Of a stretch of 39,848 nucleotides of DNA, positions 10,804-38,479 are shown piece by piece. Positions within the stretch are counted from its first letter, which is position 1; every line of letters starts with the position of its first letter. The notes beneath the pieces were generated by a model. That model saw only the letters and a list, made by a program, of their open reading frames with translations. It did no database searches and was not told the origin of the DNA. This DNA is from Syntrophorhabdaceae bacterium (GTDB lineage: Bacteria; Desulfobacterota; Syntrophorhabdia; Syntrophorhabdales; Syntrophorhabdaceae), in NCBI GenBank assembly GCA_028713955.1, contig JAQTNJ010000007.1:1-39848 (forward strand), written 5' to 3'. The position numbers and the translations under genes were made by a program.

Positions 10804-10808
10804 ATAAC

Positions 10809-10925
10809 ATGAGTCTCGACAAAACACCACAGCATATCAAACTTGACGAACGTAACCCCGTCGATATACTTCTTTCTCATCCCTGGTTGGCTAACAACCA
10901 TGCGGAATTGGAGGCATGTGCATGA
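10809..10925 (+). pseudogene. 38-codon ORF that duplicates the start of hsdR
   Basis: The frame begins MSLDKTPQHIKLDERN, close to the hsdR start MTQDKTPPHIKLDERN, and the DNA is likewise similar over about 45 bases. After that it diverges into unrelated sequence and ends in a stop overlapping the rhuM start (ATGA). The simplest reading is a scar: rhuM (or the cassette carrying it) entered at the beginning of hsdR and left a duplicated 5' fragment. The short ORF may now serve only to carry ribosomes into rhuM. Confidence 0.6.
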
Positions 10926-11938
10926 ATACAAACCTTCCCACAGCACCCGAATCTGCCGAGATCATTTTCTACCAGACCGAGGACGGACAGACCCGGCTGG
11001 AAGTGCGCTTGCACGACGAAACCGTCTGGTTGACGCAGAAGGCATTGTCCGAGCTTTTTGGCGTGCAGGTCCCGGCTATCAACAAACATTTGAAAAACAT
11101 CTTCGAATCCGGGGAGTTGCTTGAAGATTCAGTTATTTCCATTTTGGAAACAACTGCCGCCGACGGCAAAAGCTACAGCACCAGATACTACAATCTTGAT
11201 GCCATCATAGCGGTGGGCTATCGTATAAACAGTTTTCAGGCAACACAGTTCCGTATCTGGGCAACCCGGACGTTGAAGGAATTCATCATCAAGGGTTTTG
11301 TTCTGGATGACGAAAGACTCAAACAGGGCAATAGAGTTTTCGGCAAAGATTATTTTGACGAATTGCTGGAGCGCATACGGGAAATCCGGGCGAGCGAGCG
11401 GCGGTTCTACCAGAAAATAACCGACATCTATGCGCTGTCGGCGGATTACAACAAAGATGCCCCCCTGACAAAGGAGTTTTTTGCCACAGTGCAGAACAAG
11501 CTCCACTGGGCGATTACCGGGAAAACTGCCGCTGAAATCATTTACAGTTCCGCAGACGCGACTAAGATTTATATGGGGCTTACGAACTGGAGATATGCGC
11601 CGGGGGGAAAGATATTGAAATCTGATGTGACCACCGCGAAGAACTATCTGAGCGAGCACCATATCAAAGAATTGAACCGTATTGTATCTGCCTATCTGGA
11701 TCTGGCCGAGAACCGTGCTGAGAGGCAGATTCTCATGAAAATGGAGGACTGGATCGAATTCCTCAACAGCTTTCTGGAGCTGTCCAATTACCCTATCCTC
11801 GAAGATAGCGGTAAGGTTAGCGCATTGGAGGCCAGGCTTAAAGCCGAACAACAATACGATGTCTATCGGAAGCGACAGGACGCCGAATATATATCTGATT
11901 TTGACCGAGATATAAAGAGGATTGAGGGAAAGAAATGA
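10922..11938 (+). CDS. rhuM: RhuM family protein
   Basis: The 338-residue product matches the RhuM family, first named from a Salmonella pathogenicity island and commonly found inside type I restriction operons. Diagnostic segments are VWLTQKALSELFGV near the N-terminus (a DNA-binding-like region), YYNLDAIIAVGYRINS, FRIWATRTLKEFIIKGF and DDERLKQ. Its molecular role is not established; a modulator of restriction or a DNA-binding partner is often assumed. I chose ATG 10922 because GGAGG at 10910-10914 is then seven bases upstream; the alternative at 10916 is too close. The stop overlaps the hsdR start (ATGA). Confidence 0.9.
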   Translation: MNTNLPTAPESAEIIFYQTEDGQTRLEVRLHDETVWLTQKALSELFGVQVPAINKHLKNIFESGELLEDSVISILETTAADGKSYSTRYYNLDAIIAVGYRINSFQATQFRIWATRTLKEFIIKGFVLDDERLKQGNRVFGKDYFDELLERIREIRASERRFYQKITDIYALSADYNKDAPLTKEFFATVQNKLHWAITGKTAAEIIYSSADATKIYMGLTNWRYAPGGKILKSDVTTAKNYLSEHHIKELNRIVSAYLDLAENRAERQILMKMEDWIEFLNSFLELSNYPILEDSGKVSALEARLKAEQQYDVYRKRQDAEYISDFDRDIKRIEGKK

Positions 11939-14900: not shown

Positions 14901-15120
14901 GACGCAGAAGGTCTTTCTGGTTGTAGAACGGGAATTGAAGCTTACCGGTTTTTGGGAAAGCATACCGGCCAGGAACAAATTAAAAGCGGAGCTTCAAAAT
15001 ATACTGCTTGCACCTGAATTCTCCAAACTTCCTGGAGTTGTAAAAAATCGCGCCCACATCATCTCCCGGATAATGGAAATTGCCTATAAGAAAAATGACA
15101 TCATTCTCTACGCGGAGTGA
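11935..15120 (+). CDS. hsdR: Type I restriction endonuclease subunit HsdR
   Basis: HsdR translocates unmodified DNA with its helicase motor and cuts it at distant points. The 1061-residue protein has the N-terminal nuclease core PDIVLFLNGLPVVVIECKSP (D154, E168, K170), Walker A HTQGSGKS near 320-327, the DEAH box (TDEAHRSQ) near 423, motif III GYTGTPI, and later helicase motifs including LLTGFDAPV and ARVNRVGG. The C-terminal part is helical, as expected for docking to HsdM-HsdS. No interrupting stop or frameshift is seen, so the restriction system appears intact. The start overlaps the rhuM stop, and the next gene begins within a few bases of its end. Confidence 0.95.
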   Translation: MTQDKTPPHIKLDERNHVEKPLLDQLDGLGWQIIDLDGKQHPGDTYRQSFTEVVMLPVLREQLKVINDWLEDDQVEEVVKQLTASFPGTGLIQNNRHVFTLLLENTSVSENRKTGEKSPTVRFVDFTHRENNRFIAVCQLKVRVLGTEYHIVPDIVLFLNGLPVVVIECKSPKVKDAIPEAIDQLLRYSEQRGVRGEGSAPLFYYNQIVIATCRQEAKFGTITTHSEKYFYRWADPYPRTVDDLDHGESSPNDQQRLVAGMLDRDNLLDLVRIFTLFSTNDKGETIKIVGRYQQFRAVKLAVKRLQTGRNPRERSGIIWHTQGSGKSLTMMFMVREMYRHAQLSNWKVVFVTDRTQLEGQLTETSQSIGFTVKVADSIKMLKKLLRSDSSDLVMAMIHKFREADLTETFPELNPSPHILVMTDEAHRSQYAMLGANLDKGIPNAARIGYTGTPIDKTERVFGDYIDKYTMRQSIDDGVTLEIVYEGRTHNAEVTDQAGMDTAFEDVFSDYNLQQRMDILGYGSREAYLESEPTIKAKAKDMVTHYLTHVFPNGYKAQVVATSREAAVRYKKHIDAAMAAAIAGLEQTNPKRLDLDQLGRLKTDVIISGDHNDLPHLKAYSDKSRHETSIKSFKMAFGSEEEGVTGDMGILIVNNMLLTGFDAPVEQVMYLDKVIIAHNLLQAIARVNRVGGESKDKGFVVDYVGVGHHLKRAIDNYDEREQKEVLDTLSFPEEELQELKTSHAAIMALLKKHGLTDLSDHDAFFDLFYDEDLRFDYMLAFKKVTKCLNVVFPARQALDYMDDYKALTEINVLAGKHFRDESLSMKGIPSKLRSITDTYLESKGIDVKIEPISILDADFQKQVDKRSRTKTKAAEVEHAIRHHLDVELDDDPDLQASFAEALAMIFKEFRDNWNKIYEELEKLRVRIINAGKEPTYGLHRKKQMPLFRMFKREIFGEDDVEFPPELSLAAEPRSVYSINEEDRVSCLVDLTQKVFLVVERELKLTGFWESIPARNKLKAELQNILLAPEFSKLPGVVKNRAHIISRIMEIAYKKNDIILYAE

Positions 15121-17059: not shown

Positions 17060-17164
17060 GGTTTTCTGCCCCATGTCGAGATCATTGCTCCTCTGGAACT
17101 GCGGGAAGATCTTCTCACCGATCTCAATAGGGTGATCCGTAAACATACATCGAAAAACAAATGA
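17060..17164 (+). pseudogene. 3' stump of a WYL-domain regulator gene
   Basis: An open frame reads LPHVEIIAPLELREDL and ends RKHTSKNK before a stop at 17162. This matches the end of WYL proteins, for example LPYVEIVAPRELRTAL in the intact regulator ending at 26037. Only the last 34 codons remain; the RAYT element and a tandem repeat lie where the rest should be. The stop overlaps the helicase start (ATGA), so a WYL-helicase operon probably existed before the loss. Confidence 0.7.
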
Positions 17165-18486
17165 ATGAGCAGCGGTCCCATAGCATCCATGTCCCCGATA
17201 ACCTCGATGTCAATGAGGATTTTCAGCGTGCCCTTAACATCATGAACAGCAATGCCCGGTGTATCTTTATCACCGGCAGGGCAGGGACGGGTAAATCGAC
17301 TCTCCTCACCTATTTTATACAAAAGACCTTAAAGAAGGTGGTTGTCCTGGCGTCAACCGGTGTTGCCGCCTTACGGGTACGGGGGCAGACTATCCATTCC
17401 TTCTTTGGCTTCCCACCCCGGATCATTACCGGTGAAGATATCAAGGCGATGAGAAATCGTGAGTTGTATGAAACCCTTGACACTGTGATCATCGATGAAG
17501 TTTCCATGGTGAGAGCGGATCTGATGGACGGCATAGATCAATTCCTCCGCATAAACCGCAACGAGAGACGCAGTCCCTTCGGCGGCGTGCAGATGATATT
17601 TTTTGGAGATCTTTTCCAGTTGCCGCCGGTAATATCCGGTGACAGTGAAGGACAGTATCTCAGTTTTCGCTATGCGAGTCCTTACTTCTTTGATGCCCAT
17701 GTGTTTTCTCAGGTTAATATGGATGTCGTTGAGCTCAGGAAGGTATACCGTCAGAAAAACCGCCGGTTCATCACTATGCTCAATACGATCCGTGAAGGTC
17801 GCGCAGACAGTGCTCTGATCGCAAAGATCAACGAGCGGCACGGTCCTCCACCTCCTCCTGCATCCGATCTTGTCACCTTAACAACTACCAATGACAGAGC
17901 ATTAACGATAAATAATGCAAAGCTGGCAGAACTTCCCCACAACGAATTTAATTTTTACGGTGTTCCGGAAGGGGAATATTTCCAGGGGCAGAAAGAATTT
18001 CCTGCTGACCTTGTCCTGAGATTGAAGAAAGATGCGCAGGTGCTTTTCGTAAAGAACGATATGAAGAAACGGTGGGTCAACGGAGATATCGGCACTGTTG
18101 TCACGGTCGATTACAACATGATCGAGGTCGGAATTAACCGCAATAATCGTGTCACGGTTTACCCCGTGGAGAAGGAGACGTGGGAGGTGATCCGTTACCG
18201 GTTCGACCATGAGACCGGCAACATCGTCGCGGACGTTGTGGGAAAATTTACCCAGTACCCGTTGAAATTGGCCTGGGCGATAACCATCCACAAGAGCCAG
18301 GGAGCGACATTTGACAGGGTCCATATAGACTTCGGCAGGGGTACCTTCGCCCACGGTCAGGCATACGTGGCGCTAAGCCGCTGCCGGTCTTTTAAAGGTA
18401 TGACCCTGGAGAGGCCGTTTAGGTTATCGGATATACGGGTGGATGGGAGGATAGTGCATTTTTTTAATAATGCGTTAAATCGTTAG
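17161..18486 (+). CDS. PIF1-like DNA helicase, copy 1
   Basis: The 441-residue protein is a superfamily 1 helicase of the PIF1/RecD-like group, which unwinds DNA 5' to 3' with ATP. Walker A is GRAGTGKS at residues 39-46, Walker B is TVIIDEVSM near 118, motif III is FGDLFQLPPV, and the late motifs are AITIHKSQGATFD and AYVALSRCRS. It is compact, with no extra nuclease domain. A paralogue of the same length at 30434-31759 is roughly 90% identical. No good ribosome-binding site precedes ATG 17161; translation was probably coupled to the now-truncated WYL gene whose stop overlaps the start, so this copy may be poorly expressed. Confidence 0.85.
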   Translation: MNEQRSHSIHVPDNLDVNEDFQRALNIMNSNARCIFITGRAGTGKSTLLTYFIQKTLKKVVVLASTGVAALRVRGQTIHSFFGFPPRIITGEDIKAMRNRELYETLDTVIIDEVSMVRADLMDGIDQFLRINRNERRSPFGGVQMIFFGDLFQLPPVISGDSEGQYLSFRYASPYFFDAHVFSQVNMDVVELRKVYRQKNRRFITMLNTIREGRADSALIAKINERHGPPPPPASDLVTLTTTNDRALTINNAKLAELPHNEFNFYGVPEGEYFQGQKEFPADLVLRLKKDAQVLFVKNDMKKRWVNGDIGTVVTVDYNMIEVGINRNNRVTVYPVEKETWEVIRYRFDHETGNIVADVVGKFTQYPLKLAWAITIHKSQGATFDRVHIDFGRGTFAHGQAYVALSRCRSFKGMTLERPFRLSDIRVDGRIVHFFNNALNR

Positions 18487-22763: not shown

Positions 22764-22798
22764 CTGACCAAATGCTGTCAGGGTAGGTGGTGTATGCT
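22764..22798 (+). promoter_or_regulatory. WYL-type dyad plus -10 box, site 4 (AAA ATPase)
   Basis: CTGACC (22764-22769), six bases, TGTCAG (22776-22781), then TATGCT at 22793-22798, one base further than in the other sites. The -10 covers an ATG at 22794, which therefore cannot be the start of the following gene if this promoter is right. Confidence 0.5.
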
Positions 22799-22835
22799 CA
22801 ACTATTATGACAAAAACCTTTTGACGGAGGTGCAT

Positions 22836-25040
22836 ATGGCCAGAAGGACATCGAGGAGAAGATCGGCATCCGGGTTTTGCTCGGAGTACATATTCAACTC
22901 GCACTTTGAGGAAAAGAAGATATGCAAGTACCTTATAAATCTTATCAGGTCCAAATTCTACTCTTTTAAACCACAGAAGCTCTTTGCGATGGTATGCACA
23001 TTTATTGGCACATCAGCCCTCACCGTCCTGCACGAGAAACATCCTGACCTTATCACCCAGGATGTCCTCAACGATCTCGCCGGTTGGGAAAGCCAGGAAT
23101 ACGAGAGATTGTCCCAAAAATTGCTGCCGGTTAACGTCCAGCAGCTGTTCCTGAAAGAGGACGCACTGCCTATTCTGTCGGAAAGGTTTGAACAGCTCTC
23201 AAAGCAAAAACCATCAGAAATGGATAAGCGCTTCGATATACTCCAGGAAACCTTCAGGCTTTCTTCCGCGGAGATGGCTGTCATCAGCTTACGTTATCTC
23301 ATAAACGCCTGCCAGTTCCTTTGTGACGGGCTATCGAACAATAACAGGCTCATTGACTTTACTGACAGTTCGGTTTTCAAGAGCCATGGTGATGCGATTT
23401 TAGGGATCAGCAAGGCCTCAATCTCTGAGGTTTTTGGAAATTACCGCCTTTTTGATATGAATGTGTTGAAGTTCTGGTCCAACCGCACCTTTGATCTTGA
23501 GGATTGGTGTGTAAACTATCTGTCCGGTTTAGGTGATAGGGACCTGGCGTTCGATTTTTTCACGAAAGAAAATAGAACGATCCTGAGCCCGGCCGATTTC
23601 GACCTGCCGGCAGACGAACTCCTCATCGTCGAGAAGCTGATCCAGACCGAAAAGCCCCACAATATCCTCCTCTATGGTCCGCCCGGCACAGGGAAGACCT
23701 CATTTGCGCAAAGCCTCGCGAAGCATTACGGCAAGGAGCTGCTGACAGTTAAAACCCCCAAAGATGATAATCATAAGGACAGGATCCAGGCTATCTACGC
23801 TACGATTAATTTTACCGGCAGCGATAAACCGCTGGTCCTTGTTGACGAGGCCGACAATCTTCTGAATACCTATAATTCTTTCTTCTTCAAGAGTCAGACC
23901 AATAAAAGCTGGATCAATAATTTTCTTGAGACCCATGACCAGAAGATCATCTGGATCACTAACCGCCTGAGTGAGATCGACCCGTCTACTATGAGGCGCT
24001 TCTCCTTTGCCCTGGAATTCAAGACCCTTAATAAAAACAGCCGCCTGAGAGTGCTCAGGTCCGAGTTAACGAGACACGGCTTTGCGGAATATTTTACCGA
24101 GGATGATCTCCGCAACCTCTGCGACAGCTATTCAGTGAACGCCGACGGCATCGTGAAGGCGATCGATATGCTCCAAGCCTGCAGCGCGACTCAAAAGGAC
24201 AGATTGATCCCGGAGCTCAAGACGATCCTGTCCAATCATGAGAAGGTCATGACGATGAAAAGACAACCTCACGGCAAGAAAAGAGATCTCGCGTCATATT
24301 CCCTGGAAGGGCTTAACACCTCGCACGACCTTGAAGGTATCATCGCGGTGGCAAAGAGGTACGTAAGCGGAAAGAACGGCACGGGAGGGAATGTGGCGCG
24401 GTCTCTCACACTCCTCCTCCACGGACTGCCGGGTACGGGCAAAACGGAGTTTGTATACTACCTGGGGGAGGCGCTCGGCAAAGAGGTGGTCATAAGGCGG
24501 TGCAGCGAGATCGAGTCGATGTGGGTGGGGCAAACGGAGAAGAACATTGCCGAGGCATTCCATGAGGCCCAAGGCAGCGGTGATATACTATTTTTCGACG
24601 AGGCGGACAGCTTCCTTTTCCCGCGGAGGGACGCGCGCAATTCATGGGAGAAGACCTTCACGAATGAGATGCTCGCGCAGCTTGATAACTATACGGGCAT
24701 CGCGGTCTTCGCGACGAACGAGATCGAAGGGCTTGACAACGCGGCGATCAGGCGGTTCAAGTTCAAGATCGAGTTCCGCCCTCTTACCCCGGAGGGCAAC
24801 CTGCACTTCTATAACGCGATATTGAGCCCCCTTGCGAGAACGAACGGTGGTCCCGACAGAAAGGAGATGCTCGCGATAGCGGAGATACCCAACCTCACGC
24901 CCGGCGATTTTGCCGTTGTCAGAGACCAGTTTTCACTTGAAGAGCCAGCCAATATCACCCATAAGAGGTTGATCCTGTCATTGACGGTTGAAGCGAGCCA
25001 TAAGGCAGCAACAAAGAAAATAGGTTTTTTAGCACACTGA
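22836..25040 (+). CDS. Tandem AAA+ ATPase
   Basis: The 734-residue protein has two AAA+ modules after an unrecognised helical N-terminal region (about 1-250). Module 1: Walker A GPPGTGKTS near 281 and Walker B LVDEADNLL near 336, followed by TMRRFSFALEF. Module 2: Walker A GLPGTGKTE near 530, the pore-like SMWVGQTEKN, Walker B ILFFDEADSF near 585, and AIRRFKFKIEF. The layout resembles classical Cdc48-like unfoldases, so a protein- or complex-remodelling role is likely; the target is unknown. ATG 22836 is chosen because GGAGG (22826-22830) sits properly upstream and the ATG at 22794 lies in the promoter. The WYL gene follows within 60 bases. Confidence 0.85.
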   Translation: MARRTSRRRSASGFCSEYIFNSHFEEKKICKYLINLIRSKFYSFKPQKLFAMVCTFIGTSALTVLHEKHPDLITQDVLNDLAGWESQEYERLSQKLLPVNVQQLFLKEDALPILSERFEQLSKQKPSEMDKRFDILQETFRLSSAEMAVISLRYLINACQFLCDGLSNNNRLIDFTDSSVFKSHGDAILGISKASISEVFGNYRLFDMNVLKFWSNRTFDLEDWCVNYLSGLGDRDLAFDFFTKENRTILSPADFDLPADELLIVEKLIQTEKPHNILLYGPPGTGKTSFAQSLAKHYGKELLTVKTPKDDNHKDRIQAIYATINFTGSDKPLVLVDEADNLLNTYNSFFFKSQTNKSWINNFLETHDQKIIWITNRLSEIDPSTMRRFSFALEFKTLNKNSRLRVLRSELTRHGFAEYFTEDDLRNLCDSYSVNADGIVKAIDMLQACSATQKDRLIPELKTILSNHEKVMTMKRQPHGKKRDLASYSLEGLNTSHDLEGIIAVAKRYVSGKNGTGGNVARSLTLLLHGLPGTGKTEFVYYLGEALGKEVVIRRCSEIESMWVGQTEKNIAEAFHEAQGSGDILFFDEADSFLFPRRDARNSWEKTFTNEMLAQLDNYTGIAVFATNEIEGLDNAAIRRFKFKIEFRPLTPEGNLHFYNAILSPLARTNGGPDRKEMLAIAEIPNLTPGDFAVVRDQFSLEEPANITHKRLILSLTVEASHKAATKKIGFLAH

Positions 25041-25070
25041 CATAGTGTTGTCAGTCGCGTGTGATAATAT
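25037..25070 (+). promoter_or_regulatory. WYL-type dyad plus -10 box, site 3 (WYL regulator gene)
   Basis: CTGACA (25037-25042), six bases, TGTCAG (25049-25054), then TAATAT at 25065-25070 with the usual 22-base distance. It begins inside the stop codon of the AAA gene. Read as TTGTCAGTC-N8-TAnnnT it matches RecA-NDp as closely as site 1. It suggests that the WYL gene controls itself. Confidence 0.65.
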
Positions 25071-25098
25071 GAAGAAGATAACAAAAGGGGGGTCTGTA

Positions 25099-26037
25099 AT
25101 GTCCTACAAGTTTGATTCTTTGACCATCATTCTCAATAAGATCGACAGCGGGGAAAAGGTGACCGTCCAGTCCCTCATGGAGGCCCTTGAGGTGACCGAA
25201 AGGACCATACACCGCTATATGAGCACATTGCTCGTGGCGGGGTTCCCGGTCGAGTACGACAGGAAGATCGGAAGCTACGTCTTTAGCGAAGGGTATGCAC
25301 TCAAAAAGCCCGCCCTTTCCATCGAAGAGACCCTTGCCTTTGCCCTCGCAAAGAAGCTGTTTGTCGGGTTTGGTCCCGGTATGGAGAAAAACCTTGCTGA
25401 CATCGAGGACAAGCTCTCGATCAAAAAGGCGAATGCCCTGAAGCATATTGTCCTCACAGCAGAACCCCTGCCTGCCGGGTTAGAACAACATCTTACCGCA
25501 ATACATCAGGCAATTATCAATTACCAGAGAGTGATACTCGTCTATAAGGCGGTGTATGCCGATCAACCGACAGAGAGCAAGGTAGACCCTTATTACCTCT
25601 TTTTCCGTGACGGCTTCTGGTATCTCAGGGGATTTTACCAACTGGAAGAGGGCATGAGAACCTTTGCCCTCGACAGAATCGCTTCCCTGAGTCTCCTCGA
25701 TGAACATTTTGTGCCCGAATCGATCTCGCCCGAGGATGAGCTGGCAGGGGCATTCGGGGCGTTCGTGGATGGGGAACCGGTTGAAGTCGTCCTGAAGTTT
25801 GACGAAGATGCCAGGCCCTTCATCAGGAGGAAGAAATGGCACAAAAGCCAGAAGGAAAAGGAACTGGCAGACGGAAGGCTTGAGGTGAGGTTTATGGTCA
25901 ACGGCATTGCAGGTATCAGACCATGGATCTACCGTTGGCTGCCGTATGTGGAGATTGTTGCGCCCAGGGAACTGCGAACTGCCCTGAAGGCAGACCTTAT
26001 CGAGGCGATGAAAAAGCACGGGATAAAAGGCCGTTGA
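25099..26037 (+). CDS. WYL-domain transcriptional regulator 1
   Basis: The 312-residue protein has an N-terminal winged helix-turn-helix (VTVQSLMEALEVTERTIHRY, residues about 20-40), a WYL ligand-binding domain (VILVYKAVY ... DGFWYLRGFYQ ... RTFALDRI) and a C-terminal WCX domain ending in LPYVEIVAPRELRTAL. WYL proteins sense nucleotides or nucleic acids and control defence and DNA-damage genes (BrxR, CapW, PafBC). I choose ATG 25099, preceded by the G-run 25087-25092, because a longer frame from 25045 would run through the promoter at 25037-25070. The TPR gene follows seven bases after the stop. It is the best candidate for binding the five CTGACA-N6-TGTCAG sites (inference). Confidence 0.85.
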   Translation: MSYKFDSLTIILNKIDSGEKVTVQSLMEALEVTERTIHRYMSTLLVAGFPVEYDRKIGSYVFSEGYALKKPALSIEETLAFALAKKLFVGFGPGMEKNLADIEDKLSIKKANALKHIVLTAEPLPAGLEQHLTAIHQAIINYQRVILVYKAVYADQPTESKVDPYYLFFRDGFWYLRGFYQLEEGMRTFALDRIASLSLLDEHFVPESISPEDELAGAFGAFVDGEPVEVVLKFDEDARPFIRRKKWHKSQKEKELADGRLEVRFMVNGIAGIRPWIYRWLPYVEIVAPRELRTALKADLIEAMKKHGIKGR

Positions 26038-26044
26038 GGACTCT

Positions 26045-26947
26045 ATGAAAAATAATCAAAAAGAGGCTGCTAGGAAAGAAGACGTAAAACCGATCGAAAT
26101 AGAGATCATCAATTACATACACCAACATCACCCGGAATGCTCTGCCACAGGGTTTACGATGAATGCGGATTTTATCATGCTGGTCCTTGATACAGCGAAC
26201 AAAATAATAATCGATAGAGAGCCTGGGCTGGAGCCCGGTGACCTCGATGATGAGCTAACCGACGAAGAGGCCGAAGAGATCTTGCGGAACATGCCGCAAG
26301 CTGCCATCACGCAGCCGTTAGCCCACGAGTCTGTCCGCTTGATACATGAAGAATACGTCGCTTTGTCATACAGAAAGTTCCTTGCTGAAAGCGCGGATGA
26401 TGACTGTGCGATGGCATGGGAGTTCAACAACCGTGCGAATGCGAGGGCAGGGTTAGGGCGGTACCTTGAGGCACAGATGGATTATAACAGGGCATGCGAC
26501 ATAGACCCGGGCGATCCCACGCATTTCCTCAACAGGGCAGGGTTCTTTGTGTCGCTCGGACTGATTGATGATGCGTTAAGAGACTGCCTGCACGTGAGCA
26601 AACTGCTTAGAGAAGATGACATAGCATGTTATGGGGACCTGTTTATGCTTGCAAATATATTCCGGCAATGCGGGGAATATCTCTTGGCCGCCCAGTCATT
26701 ATTGAGGTTCCTCAAGCTGGTAAAGTCCCTTATACCGTATACGAGGAGAGAGGATGATAGCTACATCATTCAGAAAGACGGTCATACTATTCATACTACC
26801 AGCCTTGTCGATCTTGAAGAAATATCCTCGTTTATTAAAAACATAGAGGATGGCGGCACATGCGGGGAGAACAAAAAGTTTGGATCCCTGGTTGAAACAA
26901 TCAAAGAAGAGTTTTCTGCCTTGAAAGTTCTTGTCGGTATTATATAA
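26045..26947 (+). CDS. TPR-repeat protein of unknown function
   Basis: The 300-residue protein has an acidic N-terminal region (about residues 60-85 rich in Asp/Glu) and at least two tetratricopeptide-like repeats (AWEFNNRANARAGLGRYLEA with DIDPGDPTHFLNRAGFFVSL) near residues 122-170. No signal peptide or membrane helix is seen, so it is probably cytoplasmic. It begins seven bases after the WYL stop and overlaps the next small gene (TAATG), so it belongs to the WYL operon. Protein-protein interaction is the only role the sequence supports. Confidence 0.75.
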   Translation: MKNNQKEAARKEDVKPIEIEIINYIHQHHPECSATGFTMNADFIMLVLDTANKIIIDREPGLEPGDLDDELTDEEAEEILRNMPQAAITQPLAHESVRLIHEEYVALSYRKFLAESADDDCAMAWEFNNRANARAGLGRYLEAQMDYNRACDIDPGDPTHFLNRAGFFVSLGLIDDALRDCLHVSKLLREDDIACYGDLFMLANIFRQCGEYLLAAQSLLRFLKLVKSLIPYTRREDDSYIIQKDGHTIHTTSLVDLEEISSFIKNIEDGGTCGENKKFGSLVETIKEEFSALKVLVGII

Positions 26948-27222
26948 TGAAGCAAGGGGTACATATACCAAACGGCGGGCATATCTGTTTTGCGTATTGC
27001 ACGTACAACCGACTGACACTAGGAACGTGCGATATCTTCGGGATTGAGATAAGCCCTTTTATCCTATGCAGAGCCTTCAGGTTCCCAGAGCAGTCCCATA
27101 CGGAAGCACGAAAAAAGTGGCCCTTGCTCAATGATCTGAAACCGGGGGTTGTGTATGGGATTGATAATTCTGCTGTTTTGGCAGGAAATCCAGAACCAAT
27201 ATATGAAATAATTAAACGATGA
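26947..27222 (+). CDS. Small protein of unknown function
   Basis: A 91-residue frame whose ATG shares a base with the TPR stop (TAATG). It has three Cys in the first third (ICFAYCTYNRLTLGTC) and no recognisable family. Operon position and uninterrupted codons support it; there is no separate ribosome-binding site, which fits translational coupling. Confidence 0.55.
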   Translation: MKQGVHIPNGGHICFAYCTYNRLTLGTCDIFGIEISPFILCRAFRFPEQSHTEARKKWPLLNDLKPGVVYGIDNSAVLAGNPEPIYEIIKR

Positions 27223-27226
27223 AATG

Positions 27227-27251
27227 TTATTAATAGTACAAATTATTAATA
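27227..27251. promoter_or_regulatory. AT-rich direct repeats before the AT-rich cassette
   Basis: TTATTAATA occurs at 27227-27235 and again at 27243-27251, a 16-base period. Each unit contains the palindrome TATTAATA. They lie just before the AGGGAGGG ribosome-binding site of the gene at 27265, so they may be an operator or part of its promoter. Confidence 0.35.
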
Positions 27252-27264
27252 AAAGGGAGGGTAA

Positions 27265-28230
27265 ATGAGTATATACGATAAAACAAAAGAAGTTTGGGAA
27301 AATAATGAGAGGAAGTTTGAAAATGATATGGAGAGGTGGTTATCGCAAATTTATAAGAGTAAACAATTGGTAAGATCAAAAAGGGCAAAATTCCATGAAT
27401 GGAACCCTCTTAGGGTTTATATTTCGGTGTCAAAAACAAAACCGATAGAATTTTCGATTAGGTTTTGTGGACAAGAGGTTGCTGTATTAAGAGTAAAAAG
27501 GGATGAAGCATCCTTAAAAATTAATCAAAATAAGGAAAAAACAAACAAGAGAGATTTTAAGTGCCTAACAAAAGCCGGCGAGTATCCCTGGGTTGGCAAT
27601 GATGCAAAGGAATTTAGAGAACACTTTAAGAAACTATCTTCCGATGAGTGCAAACCAAGAGTCCCGGAACACCGAGTTGAGTCCAGCATAATAAAAGAAA
27701 TGTCAAAAAAATCATCAAAAAAGTTTTCTGGCAAGCTTTCAAAAATTCAACCTGTTTTATTAGAAAAGATGCCATTTCAGTTTCCGCTGCCAATTTCTGC
27801 AAGTAGTGGCGACCCAACAGCAACAAGGGGTAATATTGATATTCTTGCAAGACGAATAGGGGAGGATAACAGATTACGCATTTCTGTATGGGAACTTAAA
27901 AAACCTCATGTATTAGCGCATGTTGTCGAGCAGGTATACATATATGCAGTTGTGCTGGATTTTATGTTACGTTCTAAACTTGGCCCTGAATGGTTCAAAC
28001 TAATTTTTTCTGAGACGAGAGAAATCCCTACTAACTTAGAGTTCGAAGCGGTTGTTGTTGTCTCTATAGCAGAAAATCAAAAACAAAAGTTTGAAGATAA
28101 GATTAGAAACTTTATTAAATCTGAACCAATCAAAATAGGCAAAGATTCAATAAAATATTTTGTCGCTTATTATGATGATAAAACCTTTCAGATAAATCAA
28201 TTTAAAGCAATATCAAGAAATGAAACTTAA
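27265..28230 (+). CDS. Probable PD-(D/E)XK nuclease-fold protein
   Basis: The 321-residue protein is unlike any family I can name. The segment GNIDILARR ... RISVWELKKP (D192, E210, K212) fits the PD-(D/E)XK active site with a beta-hairpin between the acidic residues, followed by a helix as expected (VLAHVVEQVYIYAVVLDF). The first half is basic and may bind nucleic acid. The gene is markedly richer in AT than its neighbours, a sign of transfer. It overlaps the downstream MBL-fold gene by 11 bases, so the two are probably translated together. A new defence nuclease is a reasonable guess but untested. Confidence 0.65.
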   Translation: MSIYDKTKEVWENNERKFENDMERWLSQIYKSKQLVRSKRAKFHEWNPLRVYISVSKTKPIEFSIRFCGQEVAVLRVKRDEASLKINQNKEKTNKRDFKCLTKAGEYPWVGNDAKEFREHFKKLSSDECKPRVPEHRVESSIIKEMSKKSSKKFSGKLSKIQPVLLEKMPFQFPLPISASSGDPTATRGNIDILARRIGEDNRLRISVWELKKPHVLAHVVEQVYIYAVVLDFMLRSKLGPEWFKLIFSETREIPTNLEFEAVVVVSIAENQKQKFEDKIRNFIKSEPIKIGKDSIKYFVAYYDDKTFQINQFKAISRNET

Positions 28231-29536
28231 GATCCACCGTGGCACACACGAAATAGGTGGTTCCTGCGTTGAGATAAAAGATTCCGGCACGCGGATTGTC
28301 ATCGATATCGGAATGCCCCTTGTTACACGAGAAAAAGAGAAGTTTGAGATGAAGGCATTCAGGGATTTATCAGGTCCTGAACTTGTTGAGAGGAAGGTCC
28401 TTCCTGACATCAAGGGTTTGTACGAATGGGATACCGTCAGCAGACCTATCGATGGACTTCTCATTTCCCACGCACATGCAGACCATTACGGCTTTATGGA
28501 TTACATGCGGGATGATATACGATGCTTCCTCAGCGAAGGGACACACCAAATAATTGAGTTAAACAAGAGCTTCTTTGGAAGGGGCAAGCCGATAAAGAAT
28601 CCTATCATTCTTGAGAGTGGAAAACCTGCACGCATCAAAACCTTCATGGTTATACCTTACCTGATGGATCATTCTGCCTTTGACGCCCTAGCATTTCTTA
28701 TCGAAAGCAAAGACCGCAGGATTATCTATTCGGGTGATTTCAGGGAGCATGGGAGAAAAGGAAAAGCATTCAAATGGTTTTTGGAAAATGCTCCAAGGGA
28801 GGTTGACGCCCTTTTACTGGAAGGAACCATGGTGGGGCAGGTTGACCGGAACATGAAAACGGAACCTGAACTCGAAGAAGAGCTGATCGAACATATCGTG
28901 GAAAACAATGCAATGACCCTCGTATTCCAGTCATCACAGAACATCGACAGGATCGTGACATGTTTCAAGGCAGCACGTAGAACAGGACACCTGTTTGTTG
29001 TTGACCTCTATACTGCACATGTCCTTCGTACCCTCAAGAACACCTCGAGATCCCCCAGAATCCCTTATCCATCTCACAATTTCCCCGAGTTAAAAGTCTT
29101 TTTTCCAAAGCGACTGTGTGATCTTCTCGCACGCACGGGTAAGAAAGAATTGATGTACGTATTTAAGGACTACAAGATAGAACGAAGCGAGATCGCCGAG
29201 AATCCGCAAAAGGTTGTCATGCTGGTAAGGCCTTCTATGCTCGGAGACTTGAAACGACTGCAAGGGATCCAGGGTGCGACAGTAATATACTCCCAGTGGC
29301 AGGGCTATTTTGATGAAACACCCATGAAAAAGATGATGGATTTTCTCAAAAGCCAGGACGTGAACATCATCCAGCTCCACACAAGTGGCCACGCAGGCAT
29401 GATGACGCTCAAGAAAGTTGTTGATACCATTAGACCGGAGACGATCATTCCCATTCACACATTTTTCCCTGAACATTACAAGAAATTTGCTGCCAATGTG
29501 CTCAATGTCGAAGACGGACAGGAGATCTCCATATAG
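28220..29536 (+). CDS. MBL-fold/beta-CASP-type metallohydrolase (RNase J/CPSF-like)
   Basis: The 438-residue protein has the metallo-beta-lactamase metal motif SHAHADHYG (H84, H86, D88, H89), an early GGSCVEI strand, SGDFREHG, a middle insertion suggestive of the beta-CASP cap, and late elements TSGHAG and IPIHTFFPEH. Beta-CASP enzymes cut RNA or DNA. It is somewhat shorter than typical RNase J and lacks an obvious C-terminal domain, so it is more likely a specialised nuclease than the housekeeping enzyme. The start lies inside the preceding gene, and composition returns to the GC-richer background. Confidence 0.8.
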   Translation: MKLKIHRGTHEIGGSCVEIKDSGTRIVIDIGMPLVTREKEKFEMKAFRDLSGPELVERKVLPDIKGLYEWDTVSRPIDGLLISHAHADHYGFMDYMRDDIRCFLSEGTHQIIELNKSFFGRGKPIKNPIILESGKPARIKTFMVIPYLMDHSAFDALAFLIESKDRRIIYSGDFREHGRKGKAFKWFLENAPREVDALLLEGTMVGQVDRNMKTEPELEEELIEHIVENNAMTLVFQSSQNIDRIVTCFKAARRTGHLFVVDLYTAHVLRTLKNTSRSPRIPYPSHNFPELKVFFPKRLCDLLARTGKKELMYVFKDYKIERSEIAENPQKVVMLVRPSMLGDLKRLQGIQGATVIYSQWQGYFDETPMKKMMDFLKSQDVNIIQLHTSGHAGMMTLKKVVDTIRPETIIPIHTFFPEHYKKFAANVLNVEDGQEISI

Positions 29537-29576
29537 GTTCGCATGGAATAGTTTTGAATGGCATTGAGGAGGTGCT

Positions 29577-30290
29577 ATGAATATCACCGAAGTCGGGGAA
29601 AGGTTATTTCAAACCCTGAAATCAAACAACTGGAACACAAACATATACGATGAGGATTATCCGGCACATGACGAAATATATGCATATAAAAAGAATGATG
29701 GTCCACTCGGTATCTTTAACCATCTTGAGATATTTCTGTTCGAGCTTGATAACAACCCCAGCAATGTAGAGATCAGGCTCATGTTTTTTGCAGATCCACG
29801 ACTGGTAGATAAGACAAAAAGGGTCCTCGGGAAAAAGGTAAAGGAGAATGATTTTTTCGCATTCAAAGACTTTTGTACGAGGTTTTTTGCATGTGCAGGC
29901 GTCAGGGCATCGCAACAGGAGATGGAGAGTTCCCCACGTTACCACCGTTCTGTTCGTTTCGAAGATGAGGATCTAATCCCTGCCTATGTCGTAGAGACAG
30001 TATACTGGAAAGAGCCTGAGATCTCTGCACGGGAAGTCAGAGAAAACTACGGATTGCCGGGAAACGCCAATTGTGCCAATTGTGCTCACTACAAGCATAC
30101 ATGGGATTGTCTTGTGCTGGGAGGGGTTGGTTGCGAACCGTGGATGCATGATAATCTGAATAATGCCGAATGGCTTGATGACATTGTATGTGTGCATTGG
30201 GCTCTGCGGCCCCCTTTGGATGGATCTGTATACGAGATCGAGGATGGAAAGGTTGTAACGTATACAGGGGCAAGTGTCGAACGAGAATAG
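29577..30290 (+). CDS. Cys-rich protein of unknown function
   Basis: The 237-residue product is not recognised. The first 120 residues look like a compact alpha/beta domain. The last third holds a possible zinc site: NCANCAHYKHTWDCLVLGGV with further Cys in GCEPW and DIVCVHW. GAGGAGG directly upstream is a strong ribosome-binding site. It lies 40 bases after the MBL gene and before the second helicase, so it may belong with either. Confidence 0.65.
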   Translation: MNITEVGERLFQTLKSNNWNTNIYDEDYPAHDEIYAYKKNDGPLGIFNHLEIFLFELDNNPSNVEIRLMFFADPRLVDKTKRVLGKKVKENDFFAFKDFCTRFFACAGVRASQQEMESSPRYHRSVRFEDEDLIPAYVVETVYWKEPEISAREVRENYGLPGNANCANCAHYKHTWDCLVLGGVGCEPWMHDNLNNAEWLDDIVCVHWALRPPLDGSVYEIEDGKVVTYTGASVERE

Positions 30291-30433: not shown

Positions 30434-31759
30434 ATGACGGTGTCACAGCGATCCCATACCATCCATGTCCCTTACGATCTCGATCTCAATGAGGATTTTC
30501 AGCGCGCCCTCACCGTCATGAACGGCAACGCCCGGTGCGTTTTTATCACCGGCAGGGCAGGGACGGGTAAATCGACGCTCCTTACTTATTTTGTGCAAAA
30601 TATCTTGAAGAAGGTCGTTGTCCTTGCGTCGACCGGTATTGCCGCCTTACGGGTACGGGGGCAGACAATCCATTCCTTCTTCGGCTTCCCGCCCCGGATC
30701 GTTACCGGCGACGATATCAGAGCAATGAGGAATCGAGAGCTATACGAAGCCCTCGACACCGTGATCATCGACGAAGTTTCCATGGTGAGAGCGGACCTGA
30801 TGGACGGCATAGATCAATTCCTCCGCATAAACCGCAACGAGAGACGCAGTCCCTTCGGCGGCGTGCAGGTGATATTCTTTGGAGATCTTTTCCAATTGCC
30901 GCCGGTAATATCCGGTGACGACGAAGGACAGTATCTCAGTTTTCGCTATGCGAGCCCTTATTTTTTTGATGCCCATGTGTTTTCCCAGGTTAAGATGGAG
31001 GTCATCGAACTCGGTAAGGTATACCGTCAGAAAAACCGCCGGTTCATCACCATGCTCAACACGATCCGCGAAGGTCGTGCAGACAATGCCCTGATCGCAA
31101 AGATCAACGAACGGCACGGTCTACCATCTCAGTCGGAGCCAAACCTGGTCACTCTGACGACCACCAATGACAGGGCATTAACGATAAATAATGCAAAACT
31201 AGCAGAACTTCCCCATAACGAATTCAATTTTTACGGAGTTCCGGAAGGGAAATATCTCCAGGGACAGAAAGAATTTCCTGCCGACCTTGTCCTGAGATTA
31301 AAGAAAGATGCACAGGTGCTTTTCGTGAAGAACGACATGAAGAAAAGATGGGTCAACGGAGATATCGGCACTGTTGTCACGGTCGATTACAACATGATCG
31401 AGGTCGGAATTAACCGCAATAATCGTGTCACGGTTTACCCCGTGGAGAAGGAGACGTGGGAGGTGATCCGTTACCGATTCGACTATGAGACCGGCAACAT
31501 CATCGCAGATGTGGTGGGCACTTTTACGCAGTACCCCTTGAAACTGGCTTGGGCCATAACAATTCATAAGAGCCAGGGAGCAACATTTGACAGGGTCCAT
31601 ATTGACCTTGGGAGAGGCGCCTTCGCTCACGGTCAGGCATACGTGGCCCTAAGCCGCTGCAGGTCTTTGAAAGGCATCACACTGGAGAGGCTGTTGAGAC
31701 TGTCGGACATACGGGTGGACGGGAGGATTGTCCATTTTTTCAAAAAAACATTGCTATAA
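30434..31759 (+). CDS. PIF1-like DNA helicase, copy 2
   Basis: Same architecture and length (441 residues) as copy 1: Walker A GRAGTGKS, Walker B TVIIDEVSM, FGDLFQLPPV, AITIHKSQGATFD and AYVALSRCRS, all intact. Differences cluster at the N-terminus, around residues 230-240 and at the C-terminus. Bases 31349-31476 are identical to 18073-18200 (128 bases), while flanking codons carry silent changes, suggesting gene conversion. Unlike copy 1, it has its own 5' region with a GAAGGA element 6 bases before ATG 30434, so it is the likelier expressed copy. An AT-rich nuclease gene follows 39 bases downstream. Confidence 0.85.
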   Translation: MTVSQRSHTIHVPYDLDLNEDFQRALTVMNGNARCVFITGRAGTGKSTLLTYFVQNILKKVVVLASTGIAALRVRGQTIHSFFGFPPRIVTGDDIRAMRNRELYEALDTVIIDEVSMVRADLMDGIDQFLRINRNERRSPFGGVQVIFFGDLFQLPPVISGDDEGQYLSFRYASPYFFDAHVFSQVKMEVIELGKVYRQKNRRFITMLNTIREGRADNALIAKINERHGLPSQSEPNLVTLTTTNDRALTINNAKLAELPHNEFNFYGVPEGKYLQGQKEFPADLVLRLKKDAQVLFVKNDMKKRWVNGDIGTVVTVDYNMIEVGINRNNRVTVYPVEKETWEVIRYRFDYETGNIIADVVGTFTQYPLKLAWAITIHKSQGATFDRVHIDLGRGAFAHGQAYVALSRCRSLKGITLERLLRLSDIRVDGRIVHFFKKTLL

Positions 31760-31798: not shown

Positions 31799-33214
31799 AT
31801 GAACAAGGTATTAACCAGAATGGAACAGATAGCTTATAAAGAAGTAGCCGAAACTTTGCTGGCCGAAATTTATCATAAATATTCGATAAAAAATAATTCT
31901 TATCAAGAGTCAGTAAAATATTTATTTGAAGCATTGAAGCCAAAAATAAAGGAATATGAAAAGAATAGAGAAGAAAAAAGATTGAGATTGTCTTGCGATT
32001 TTAATGTATTTGAATTTTTGAAGTATAATGAAAATGATTTTTCTAATATTATCGCCGATATGCTCAGTCCCACAGGGACACACGGTCAAAAAGAAGTTTT
32101 TTTAGATAAATTTTTACAGCTTATTGAGGAAAAAACAGGTAAGTGCATAAAAAATAATTTCAGTTTCTTAAGAAAGATTCAGAGAGAAGAAAGCACTGAA
32201 GAATATAGACGAATAGATATTTATATTGAATTTTTAGACGGATTTATATTGGCAATTGAAAATAAGATTGGAACAGCAGTAGATCAGCCTAATCAAGTAG
32301 CAGACTATATAAATGAGATTGAGAATCGAAGTTGTCCAGATTATTTGTTCATATATTTAACTCCTGATGGAAATAATCCAGATAAAAATTCAATCTGTGA
32401 GAAATGTAGAGAAGAATTGAGAAAACAAGGACATTTTATAACCATGTCCTACAGAGAGGATATTAGAGAATGGCTTGACAGTTGCATAGATTGCTGTAAG
32501 TCGGAGAAATATAAATATTTCTTAAGAGATATGAAAAGCTTAAATTGTTTCATAGGAGGGGGCATGGATACAGAAAAGACCGATATACTGAAAAGCGTGA
32601 TTAAAAAGCCAGAAAGATATAAAATCGCAATTGACATTTATGAAAACTATGACAATATCATGCAGCCACTAAGAGATACATTTTTTAACACAATCAAGCA
32701 AAGAATATATGAAAGATTCATGCTTGATGAAAAGAATTGGATTTTTGTTTATAACCATAGGAATGACAAAAATTGTTTTCTATTTAAAGATTTTTGGAGG
32801 CCTCATAAATCCGGGATTGGGCTCTACTCTTTTTGCCTGTGGGACAATGATGGTTCAGGGCTGGTTAGAGATAATTATGACCCCCAACAATTGGTCAATG
32901 AAGAACAACCGATAATAAGTATAATCAAGGATTTGAAGGGGATGCATAAATACCCAAGAGATGACTATTGGTGGCTGCTTCTAAAGCAACCCAATCCTTT
33001 TCATTGGATTCCAGAAAATTATAGAAAAATACTCCACACGGAATCAGAATATTTCACGGAATCAGAATATTTCAAAACACTTGTTGATGATTGTGTAATT
33101 CGGTTGGAGGATTTATTATCTCTTATGAAAAAAACGAATCTTGAAGAAGCAATTGATGAAGCGGCTAAACTTAGAAAAGATAATGACAAAATAGGACAAT
33201 TGAACTCACCGTAA
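31799..33214 (+). CDS. PD-(D/E)XK nuclease superfamily protein (PDDEXK_4-like)
   Basis: The 471-residue product resembles PD-(D/E)XK_4 proteins: NVFEFLKYNENDFSNIIADM and LSPTGTHGQ near the N-terminus (residues about 65-100), then RRIDIYIEFLDGFILAIENK carrying the catalytic D and E-x-K around 140-156, then a Q-rich helix (DQPNQVADYI). The C-terminal half, about 260-471, is unrecognised and may be a sensor or target domain. Codon use is strongly AT-biased compared with the helicase before it, marking a recent acquisition. ATG 31799 has a weak upstream site; ATG 31820 is an alternative. A restriction-like or anti-phage role is likely but not shown. Confidence 0.75.
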   Translation: MNKVLTRMEQIAYKEVAETLLAEIYHKYSIKNNSYQESVKYLFEALKPKIKEYEKNREEKRLRLSCDFNVFEFLKYNENDFSNIIADMLSPTGTHGQKEVFLDKFLQLIEEKTGKCIKNNFSFLRKIQREESTEEYRRIDIYIEFLDGFILAIENKIGTAVDQPNQVADYINEIENRSCPDYLFIYLTPDGNNPDKNSICEKCREELRKQGHFITMSYREDIREWLDSCIDCCKSEKYKYFLRDMKSLNCFIGGGMDTEKTDILKSVIKKPERYKIAIDIYENYDNIMQPLRDTFFNTIKQRIYERFMLDEKNWIFVYNHRNDKNCFLFKDFWRPHKSGIGLYSFCLWDNDGSGLVRDNYDPQQLVNEEQPIISIIKDLKGMHKYPRDDYWWLLLKQPNPFHWIPENYRKILHTESEYFTESEYFKTLVDDCVIRLEDLLSLMKKTNLEEAIDEAAKLRKDNDKIGQLNSP

Positions 33215-33373: not shown

Positions 33374-34734
33374 GATAACGTAAAATATTTTTCGCACAAT
33401 TGAGCCATGGCGACCTCGAATCTGGTAATGTAAAGCATCACCATCACAAAAGCCAGAAGGAAGTACACCATGACCCAAAAACAGTGTAGCACAAAAGGAA
33501 GCAAAATAATCCAGATCAATGAGGAGCAGGTAAAGGAGCATCTGGGAGAGATCGTCAGGGGAACGGTACAGGAGACATTGAACGCGCTCCTGGATGAAGA
33601 AGCGGCACGTCTGTGCAGTGCACGCAGGTATGAGCGGACAGAAGGACGGAAAGACAGGAGGGCGGGACACTACACCCGCACACTTCAGACCAAGGCAGGG
33701 GAAGTGGACATCAGGATGCCGAAGCTAAGAACATTGCCCTTTGAGACAGCGATCATTGAGCGGTACCGAAGGAGAGAGTCCTCCGTGGAAGAGGCACTCG
33801 TTGAGATGTACCTGGCAGGGGTATCGGTCCGAAGGGTGGAGGACATCACCGAGGCCCTTTGGGGCAGCAAGGTGAGTCCCGGCACCATCTCCCATCTCAA
33901 CGCCAGGATATACACCACCATTGAGGACTGGAGAAAAAGACCGATCGGGGGCAGCCACCCCTATGTCTACCTCGACGGGATCTTGCTGAAGAGGAGTTGG
34001 GGAGGAGAGGTAAAGAACGTATCGGTATTAGTGGCGATCGGGGTCAGTAAGGAAGGCTACCGGGAGATCCTGGGAGTAGCCGAGGGAGCAAAGGAAGACA
34101 AGGAGAGCTGGACCTCCTTTTTACGGTATCTGAAGGCAAGAGGGCTCAAAGGAGTGGAGCTTGTCATCTCCGATAAATGTCTCGGTCTTGTCGAGAGCTT
34201 GGGGGAGTGCTATCCTGACGCCTCATGGCAGCGATGCATCGTCCACTTCTACCGGAACGTATTCACCATGGTCCCCAGAGGGAAGGTACGGGAAGTGGCC
34301 GTCATGCTGAAGGCGATCCACGCCCAGGAGGATGCAAAGGAGGCACAGGAAAAAGCGGCGGCAGTGGTGAAGAAGCTTCAGGGCATGAAGCTTGGCAGGG
34401 CGGCGGATATGGTAAATGAAGGGATCAAAGAGACACTCTCCTACTATGGGTTCCCCCGGGAGCACTGGAGGAAGATCAGGACGAACAATCCCCTTGAGCG
34501 GATCATGAAGGAGATCAGGCGGCGCACACGGGTCGTCGGATCCTTCCCTGACGGCAACTCGGCGCTCATGCTTGTGGCGGCCCGCTTACGTCATATCGCA
34601 GGGACGAAATGGGGGATGAACCAATACCTGAAGATGGACCAGCTTGAGGAGGAGGCAGCAGAGGCAACACGATAAAGCGTAACCACCATGAGATGAGGTT
34701 GCTATGAAAAGTGCGAAAGATTCTTGACACTATC
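33374..34734 (+). mobile_element. IS256-family insertion sequence, complete
   Basis: The element spans 1,361 bases. Ends beginning GATA-- and sharing TTTCGCAC match at 18 of 24 positions between the left end (33374-33397) and the inverse complement of the right end (34711-34734). The direct repeat GTCACAAA borders both sides (33366-33373 and 34735-34742), the expected 8-base target duplication of this family. Intact ends and duplication indicate a fairly recent insertion that did not rearrange afterwards. Confidence 0.85.
33470..34675 (+). CDS. IS256-family (Mutator-type) transposase
   Basis: The 401-residue DDE transposase moves the surrounding element by cut or copy mechanisms. Family marks include the N-terminal LDEEAARLCSARRYER, the RMPKLR segment, the first Asp in YVYLDGIL, the second in VISDKCLG, CIVHFYRN, and the terminal NNPLERIMKEIRRRTRVVGSFP with its Glu. 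No stop or shift interrupts it, so it is probably active. It lies inside ends at 33374 and 34734. Confidence 0.95.
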   Translation: MTQKQCSTKGSKIIQINEEQVKEHLGEIVRGTVQETLNALLDEEAARLCSARRYERTEGRKDRRAGHYTRTLQTKAGEVDIRMPKLRTLPFETAIIERYRRRESSVEEALVEMYLAGVSVRRVEDITEALWGSKVSPGTISHLNARIYTTIEDWRKRPIGGSHPYVYLDGILLKRSWGGEVKNVSVLVAIGVSKEGYREILGVAEGAKEDKESWTSFLRYLKARGLKGVELVISDKCLGLVESLGECYPDASWQRCIVHFYRNVFTMVPRGKVREVAVMLKAIHAQEDAKEAQEKAAAVVKKLQGMKLGRAADMVNEGIKETLSYYGFPREHWRKIRTNNPLERIMKEIRRRTRVVGSFPDGNSALMLVAARLRHIAGTKWGMNQYLKMDQLEEEAAEATR

Positions 34735-37486: not shown

Positions 37487-38479
37487 ATGGAAACAACCGT
37501 AACAAACTACCTGGCAAACCTGGAGCTGCAGGGGATTCAGCAGTTTAAAAATATGGCGGTCTTCCCGGTCTCTATTCCGATGGACGGAAGTCCGCAGTAT
37601 TTAACACTTAAAGAAGCGCTTGAGAGGAGGCTCCTTGTTATTACCGAAATAAGCCACGGCGGCACGGTGCCTGAACTGATGGCAGCGAACAACGCGGATA
37701 TCCCCGTCCTTCTCCTCGACGGCGAGGAACTCTCGGGGGCAAAGCAGAACAGGGTCCTCAATACGACGATCCTTCTCAAGGAACATTCGGAAACAATCAT
37801 CCCTGTGAGCTGTACCGAGCAGGGGAGGTGGTCCTACACATCCCATGAATTCGCGGACTCGGGGATCATAATGGCACAGAAGATCAGGAGAGAGAAGGCG
37901 AGAACGGTTACAGATAATCTTAAGTCCGCTCCCCGCGCCTACCGGGCAAATCAGGGACAGGTCTGGGATGATATCGCGAGGATGGAGGTAGATGCCGGTG
38001 TCCGTTCGTCTACCGGCGCAATGAAGGATGTCTTCCAGGAAAAAGAAGATGATATGGGCGAATATATGAAGGCATTTCCGCATGTACCCGGCCAAAGAGG
38101 GCTGATCGTGTTTGTCAACGGAAGGGTTGCCGGATTCGATATGGTATCCCTCGAATCGGCATATGCCGTACTGCATACGAAACTCATCAAGAGCTATGCC
38201 ATGGATGCCTACCTGGAGCGGAGGAAGGCTGAAGGAAATTACAAGCCATCCGTAGGAGACGCAAAGGCCTTTCTCGGTGCTGTCCAGGCCTGTAAGGAGG
38301 AGCGCTACGAATCCCTGGGGCATGGTTGGGATTACCGCTATGAAGGGCAGTCAATAGTCGGTTCAGCGTTGGTATTCAGCGAGAAGGTTATTCACATGGC
38401 GTTCTTCAGTATTGTCGATAGTGAGAGGATAGGCAACATGTCAGGGTTCAGGAGACGGAGAGGATACCGGACGCATTAA
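37487..38479 (+). CDS. ARPP-1 family protein
   Basis: The 330-residue protein matches the ARPP-1 domain (ADP-ribosylglycohydrolase and rhodanese-phosphatase associated protein 1): AVFPVSIP, LLLDGEELSGAKQNRVLNTT, the SETIIPVSCTEQGRW core, then YTSHEFADSG and a C-terminal half with QRGLIVFVNGRVAGFD. The family was defined by comparative genomics of conflict systems; its activity is not known. Here an ADP-ribosylglycohydrolase gene indeed follows in the same operon, supporting the assignment. AAAGGAGGG lies at the expected spacing before ATG 37487. Confidence 0.8.
   Translation: METTVTNYLANLELQGIQQFKNMAVFPVSIPMDGSPQYLTLKEALERRLLVITEISHGGTVPELMAANNADIPVLLLDGEELSGAKQNRVLNTTILLKEHSETIIPVSCTEQGRWSYTSHEFADSGIIMAQKIRREKARTVTDNLKSAPRAYRANQGQVWDDIARMEVDAGVRSSTGAMKDVFQEKEDDMGEYMKAFPHVPGQRGLIVFVNGRVAGFDMVSLESAYAVLHTKLIKSYAMDAYLERRKAEGNYKPSVGDAKAFLGAVQACKEERYESLGHGWDYRYEGQSIVGSALVFSEKVIHMAFFSIVDSERIGNMSGFRRRRGYRTH

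Follow-up and report, generated by a model that had tools for sequence, protein, structure and literature searches.

A beta-CASP protein coupled to exchangeable PD-(D/E)XK partners in a mobile two-gene module that may act against foreign nucleic acid

Restriction endonucleases are fast-diverging PD-(D/E)XK proteins, and in type I restriction systems the specificity part is exchanged beside a constant part. The gene pair described here is similar in that a fast-diverging PD-(D/E)XK protein is swapped beside a constant part, but the exchanged part is the predicted nuclease itself and the constant part is a predicted beta-CASP nuclease. In the metallo-beta-lactamase (MBL) nuclease-protease pairs of Hachiman, AVAST, Lamassu and Canu, DNases of the DNA-uptake (ComEC) type are activated by a protease (PMC12799240). 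Our pair has in common with these an MBL-fold nuclease in a mobile gene pair, the link to defence being a feature of those systems. In contrast to the HamM and Canu pairs, its MBL protein is RNase J-like and not ComEC-like, and the partner is a PD-(D/E)XK nuclease instead of a protease. Cas14 of type VII CRISPR is a beta-CASP enzyme that serves as RNA effector in defence (PMC10910872); our locus shares the beta-CASP nuclease but has no Cas partner. We found no beta-CASP and PD-(D/E)XK pair described in the open-access literature, outside of which most subscription papers lie, and PADLOC-DB 2023 has no entry for it. The pair is therefore provisionally regarded as undescribed, no known kind of system having a beta-CASP nuclease as its constant part and a PD-(D/E)XK nuclease as its exchangeable one. 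What is new is the gene system; the biochemistry of the pair may prove to be restriction-like.

The window, i.e., the whole stretch of 39,848 nucleotides that was analysed, carries the pair in a head-to-tail cluster on the forward strand, and all open reading frames, overlaps and gaps listed in an earlier note on this DNA were reproduced. A gene for a tandem AAA+ ATPase with an IetA-like C-terminal AAA region (22794-25040; domain and PADLOC model matches) is followed by genes for a WYL/WCX transcription regulator (25045-26037; domain match), which is probably a local regulator, for a TPR protein (26045-26947; TPR match) and for a small protein of 91 aa with 4 Cys (26947-27222) that overlaps the TPR gene by 1 base. 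After a gap of 42 bases comes the variable partner, a predicted PD-(D/E)XK nuclease of 321 aa (27265-28230). The last 11 bases of its reading frame (28220-28230) overlap the gene for the constant partner, an RNase J-like MBL/beta-CASP protein of 438 aa assigned by motif and profile matches (28220-29536), the ATG of which lies inside the upstream gene. A gap of 40 bases separates the latter from a gene for a Cys-containing protein (237 aa, 7 Cys; 29577-30290) that matches neither Pfam nor PADLOC models. Promoter and terminator scans gave no excess over shuffled sequences.

The MBL protein matches Lactamase_B_2, RMMBL and TIGR00649, the RNase J subfamily model, as well as PDB 2az4 (EF2904) and RNase J structures. 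Its motifs comprise HxHxDH at 84-89 (H84, H86, D88, H89), H151, D173, SGH at 389-391 and H413. The active site (HxHxDH and the further metal ligands) is invariant in all 104 proteins aligned, and so are E201, H391 and H413, which we take, from knowledge of RNase J, to be the beta-CASP motifs A (D/E), B (H) and C (H). Beta-CASP enzymes of the RNA type have a His at motif C, so RNA or RNA-containing targets are possible for this protein. It shares MBL and beta-CASP motifs, the RMMBL match and metal-site residues with RNase J and other beta-CASP ribonucleases including EF2904 (2AZ4). Unlike RNase J, the MBL proteins of the module have about 435 aa, are accessory and are coupled to a PD-(D/E)XK gene, and they stay far below the cut-off of the RNase J models: the window protein scores 72 bits against TIGR00649, for which the curated cut-off is 400, and is thus not scored as a housekeeping RNase J. 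Against the Cas14 equivalog model it reaches 14.9 bits of the 800 required, a trace match only, and none of the PADLOC models matches it.

For the PD-(D/E)XK protein of the window no significant match was obtained in Pfam, PADLOC, NCBIfam, PHROG or PDB sequences. Nevertheless, E135, D192, E210 and K212 are near-invariant across 79 partner proteins and correspond to D...(D/E)xK catalytic residues. Profiles of the nuclease core related the cluster of the window partner to two other partner clusters (E values 2.7e-5 and 6.3e-6), this pairwise comparison of clusters being stronger than a comparison of profiles of 4 versus 20 sequences, which was weak. Both lines of evidence support the PD-(D/E)XK-like assignment that the earlier note had made for 27265-28230. 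Modelling of the window protein from 4 sequences gave a poor structure (pLDDT 58.6), and its Foldseek matches were set aside. A better model (pLDDT 82.8) was obtained for the partner protein of a viral contig, L016, which in comparison to the PDB gave Can2, Cdn1, R2, Mus81, MunI and others with modest scores (probability 0.80 but E > 0.001); PD-(D/E)XK enzymes are among the best matches, Can2 being the nearest structure. Some partners weakly match HSDR_N_2, NucS_C, YhcG_C and SduA_C as well as the NucS structure, which is consistent with membership in the PD-(D/E)XK superfamily, and the PADLOC candidate model PDC-S11 weakly matches 8 of the 79. Likeness to the PDC-S11, Shedu, NucS and HSDR_N families is therefore limited to some partners, and the window protein matches none of them. 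The N-terminal half of the partner varies from family to family.

These features leave room for an RNA-targeting abortive or regulatory system, in which the beta-CASP protein would be the effector RNase and the PD-(D/E)XK protein an exchangeable sensor and trigger and not the first cutter. The RNase J-type relatives and the invariant His of motif C fit such a system, and Cas14 sets a precedent for a beta-CASP RNA effector in defence (PMC10910872). Can2, the nearest structure to the L016 partner, points in the same direction, as it is described as a dual-specificity nuclease (PMC7969007). However, the PD-(D/E)XK catalytic residues are kept across the partner families, which would be needless for a pure sensor, and we consider an RNA-targeting system of this kind rather unlikely.

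Relatives of the MBL protein were not found when collections were queried with single proteins; queries with alignments were required. When genomes were scanned with eight aligned MBL proteins, at least 565 relatives were returned among species-level genomes, and 80 loci were kept. The module spans more than 20 phyla and occurs on phage contigs and plasmids as well. The kept loci stem from Bacteroidota, Omnitrophota, Patescibacteria, Chloroflexota, Spirochaetota, Planctomycetota, Fibrobacterota, Bacillota, Cloacimonadota, Thermodesulfobacteriota, Lokiarchaeota and others. A co-directional gene abuts the MBL start in 76 of the 87 loci with room upstream, at distances from -61 to +36 and most commonly -4. 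The D...ExK motif was present in 60 of 75 suitably sized adjacent genes versus 29 of 384 size-matched background genes (Fisher P=1.5e-38), and ExK is visible by eye in several of the remaining adjacent genes. This demonstrates a linkage of the pair above chance. About 10% of the MBL loci have no PD-(D/E)XK neighbour; a distant MBL copy (L009, 24% identity) belongs to a transporter cluster and has no partner of this kind.

Within the window's phylum the MBL gene is present in 14 of 395 genomes, and in none of six congeners. In the nearest relative, genome G020 from another genus of the same family, the WYL, PD-(D/E)XK, MBL and Cys genes stand in identical order, and the 11-base overlap is kept. 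Partners of the window type were found in G000 and G020 only (297 genomes searched), beside the MBL gene both times. The largest partner family, searched for in 395 genomes, was matched seven times: three matches adjoin an MBL gene and one a truncated MBL gene, one is a remnant, and two are orphans. G020 also carries a second, decayed copy (L169, 3922-5451), in which a truncated MBL gene is followed by an intact partner of this largest family.

Four MBL sequences of the window's phylum lie in longer reading frames. Three of these, from three genomes (L139, L141, L145), are MBL-PD-(D/E)XK fusions of 755-764 aa, and their C-terminal halves share 38-42% identity with the partner that stands alone in L058; the fourth (L140) has a truncated C-terminus. 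Natural fusions argue for a physical association of both proteins. Considering the conserved adjacency across phyla, the fusions and the motif counts, the linkage of two nuclease folds suggested in the earlier note is well founded, and the homologues of the two genes are not scattered independently. As judged from sequence, the beta-CASP MBL protein and a predicted PD-(D/E)XK nuclease are coupled in an operon and in some cases form a single polypeptide.

Plasmid copies and viral contigs mostly have a partner reading frame touching or near the MBL gene, on either side. On the viral contigs L016-L019, the sequences of which were read by eye, the copies lie near terminase- or recombinase-like genes. 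Together with the plasmid copies this would suit a housekeeping function for mobile elements, with the pair processing nucleic-acid ends when phages and plasmids replicate, recombine or counteract defence. The majority of copies, however, lie on contigs of cellular genomes, where their neighbours do not recur, and the exchange of partners described below would be hard to account for by such a function, so that we regard it as unlikely.

Single-linkage clustering of the partners gave 16 clusters. In 107 locus pairs the MBL proteins are 70% or more identical, and of these pairs 71% lack BLAST-detectable similarity between the partners and 29% show it; some of the missing similarity may reflect rapid divergence and not replacement, because many clusters have nuclease cores that profiles can relate to each other. 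MBL proteins that are 79-88% identical can have partners without detectable similarity, examples with 83-88% MBL identity being L021/L023 (88%), L024/L025 and L016/L085. Between the window and its nearest relative, MBL identity is 81-82% and partner identity 31%. For locus pairs with MBL proteins at least 72% identical and partners unrelated or below 35% identity, nucleotide similarity starts between -16 and +12 from the MBL start codon in 73 pairs, which are formed by 30 loci and are mutually non-independent. Where the partners are related, similarity runs 800-1490 bases further upstream in 9 of 10 pairs. Likewise, DNA similarity of the window to relatives with other partners starts at the junction 28220-28230. 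For window/L010 and L057/L062, homologous DNA is present on both sides of the exchanged gene, showing that the partner alone was replaced or diverged much faster. Mapped on the MBL tree, a quick tree with some weak branches, partner type changes at least 40 times, which is close to the mean of 46.9 obtained by shuffling. On average, the GC content of the partner is 4 points below that of its own MBL gene; it is the lower of the two in 69 of 73 loci (P=2.6e-12), with 34.5% versus 46.0% in the window. These comparisons of sequences indicate that the predicted PD-(D/E)XK gene has been swapped again and again as an entire cassette, and that the MBL gene is constant.

A short overlapping operon, mobility, a fast-changing partner and decayed copies are also what one would expect of a toxin-antitoxin-like pair, in which one nuclease is toxic and the other protein keeps it inactive. 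In that case the complete active sites of both partners and the natural fusions would be surprising, and the combination of one MBL type with many unrelated partners is unlike the usual specificity of antitoxins. We therefore consider a toxin-antitoxin-like pair improbable.

The earlier note had combined the AAA, WYL, TPR, small protein and Cys protein genes with the pair into a single system. This was not borne out: only the pair recurs, and most pairs lack all of these genes. A search of seven other genomes (six congeners and G020) did not recover the TPR gene, which stands outside the conserved module. The small protein gene shows 80% nucleotide identity to DNA just upstream of the PD-(D/E)XK gene in L010, the locus of G020, and is frameshifted there. 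Homologues of the Cys protein occur only in G020 (76% over 149 aa, with a broken frame) and in L020 (33%). Since G020 is a draft assembly, the frameshifts of both genes in L010, where the pair is intact, are possibly assembly errors. The AAA protein has homologues with 44-47% amino acid identity beside the pair in L010, L020 and L098; its family is mostly found away from the pair. It matches IetA models mainly across the C-terminal AAA region, and no IetS-like protease was found among the adjacent gene products scanned. WYL-type proteins lie near the pair in nine loci, the one upstream of the pair in L010 being 69% identical to the WYL protein of the window (25045-26037).

That the full module forms one sensor-motor-nuclease system is very doubtful on these data. 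The compact co-directional cluster would agree with it, as would the homologues that lie next to the pair in L010 and L020 (AAA and Cys) and in L098 (AAA), but L010 lacks the TPR gene and its small and Cys genes are broken, and most pairs do without any of these genes. The AAA and Cys genes are best regarded as optional associates, and the small, TPR and WYL genes as optional too.

A conserved third gene was likewise sought among metallophosphoesterase, "GIFW" protein, serine recombinase and TPR genes, and was rejected because none of them recurs broadly. A protein of about 130 aa starting around GIFW is encoded beside the MBL gene on the alphaproteobacterial plasmids L004, L005, L006 and L011 and near it in L059, and in L008 and L013 the MBL gene shares its last bases with a metallophosphoesterase gene (7455-8024 and 7215-7859, respectively). 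In a Spirochaetaceae genome (L088, 4656-7649) the MBL/beta-CASP protein is fused to a C-terminal AAA ATPase region, and a WYL gene follows.

A scan of 134 flanking genes gave scattered defence-type matches (WYL 3, PsyrT 2, PDC-S01 2, AbiEi 1) among many ordinary genes; strong enrichment as in a defence island was not found in it. The window carries further defence-type genes, namely those for type I restriction-modification (RM), a PDC-S26 nuclease, a second WYL protein and ARPP-1. The type I RM locus (1969-15120) has additional genes between HsdS and HsdR, which encode an unassigned protein of 586 aa, an SMC/LmuB-like ATPase of 1026 aa and PDC-S05. The PDDEXK_4/PADLOC candidate PDC-S26 nuclease gene (31799-33214) has a GC content of 31.8% and is adjoined by a Mutator-family transposase gene (33470-34675). 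The ARPP-1 domain protein (37487-38479) has a homologue with 36% identity in L145 (7082-8116), directly upstream of the MBL-PD-(D/E)XK fusion. Two PIF1-like helicase genes (17161-18486 and 30434-31759) are near-duplicates with 89.7% protein identity that flank the region, and a homologue (47%) is the next gene after the MBL gene in L086. The congeners have recQ in common with the window and share nothing beyond recQ on the module side, which places the module in a variable region; a clean empty site was not identified in them.

Taken together, we tend to favour, with modest confidence, a mobile pair of nuclease genes: a constant beta-CASP protein would work with an exchangeable, target-recognising PD-(D/E)XK nuclease, most likely against foreign nucleic acid. 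The mobile and accessory occurrence of the pair, together with the way in which partners are exchanged, leads us to infer the defence role, the choice of target by the PD-(D/E)XK protein and the processing of its products by the MBL protein. The earlier note had proposed an uncharacterised defence system, which is plausible for the pair; defence-type matches were only scattered among the 134 flanking genes scanned. According to this model both proteins would form a complex, the PD-(D/E)XK subunit would recognise the foreign nucleic acid and make the first cut, and the beta-CASP subunit would then trim or degrade the cut molecule, probably from the 5' end, with RNA or RNA-containing targets possible for the latter. 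Under the pressure of phages and plasmids, swapping of the PD-(D/E)XK gene would shift the range of targets. The copy in the window lies in a WYL-headed cluster with the AAA ATPase and accessory Cys proteins, among other defence-type genes. A more far-reaching version, which we put forward only tentatively, is a so far unrecognised, pan-prokaryotic restriction-like system without methyltransferase, in which many unrelated PD-(D/E)XK nucleases can join the constant beta-CASP protein to provide specificity, their genes being swapped intact at a fixed junction. No cognate methyltransferase recurs among the neighbours of the pair, and the type I RM genes of the window lie 12 kb away.

If the pair acts in defence, it would be among the broadest uncharacterised systems, with at least 565 MBL matches in more than 20 phyla. 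It would also diversify by gene-by-gene replacement of the specificity nuclease on a constant beta-CASP core, and the abundant natural exchanges would provide ready material for finding the determinants of the target.
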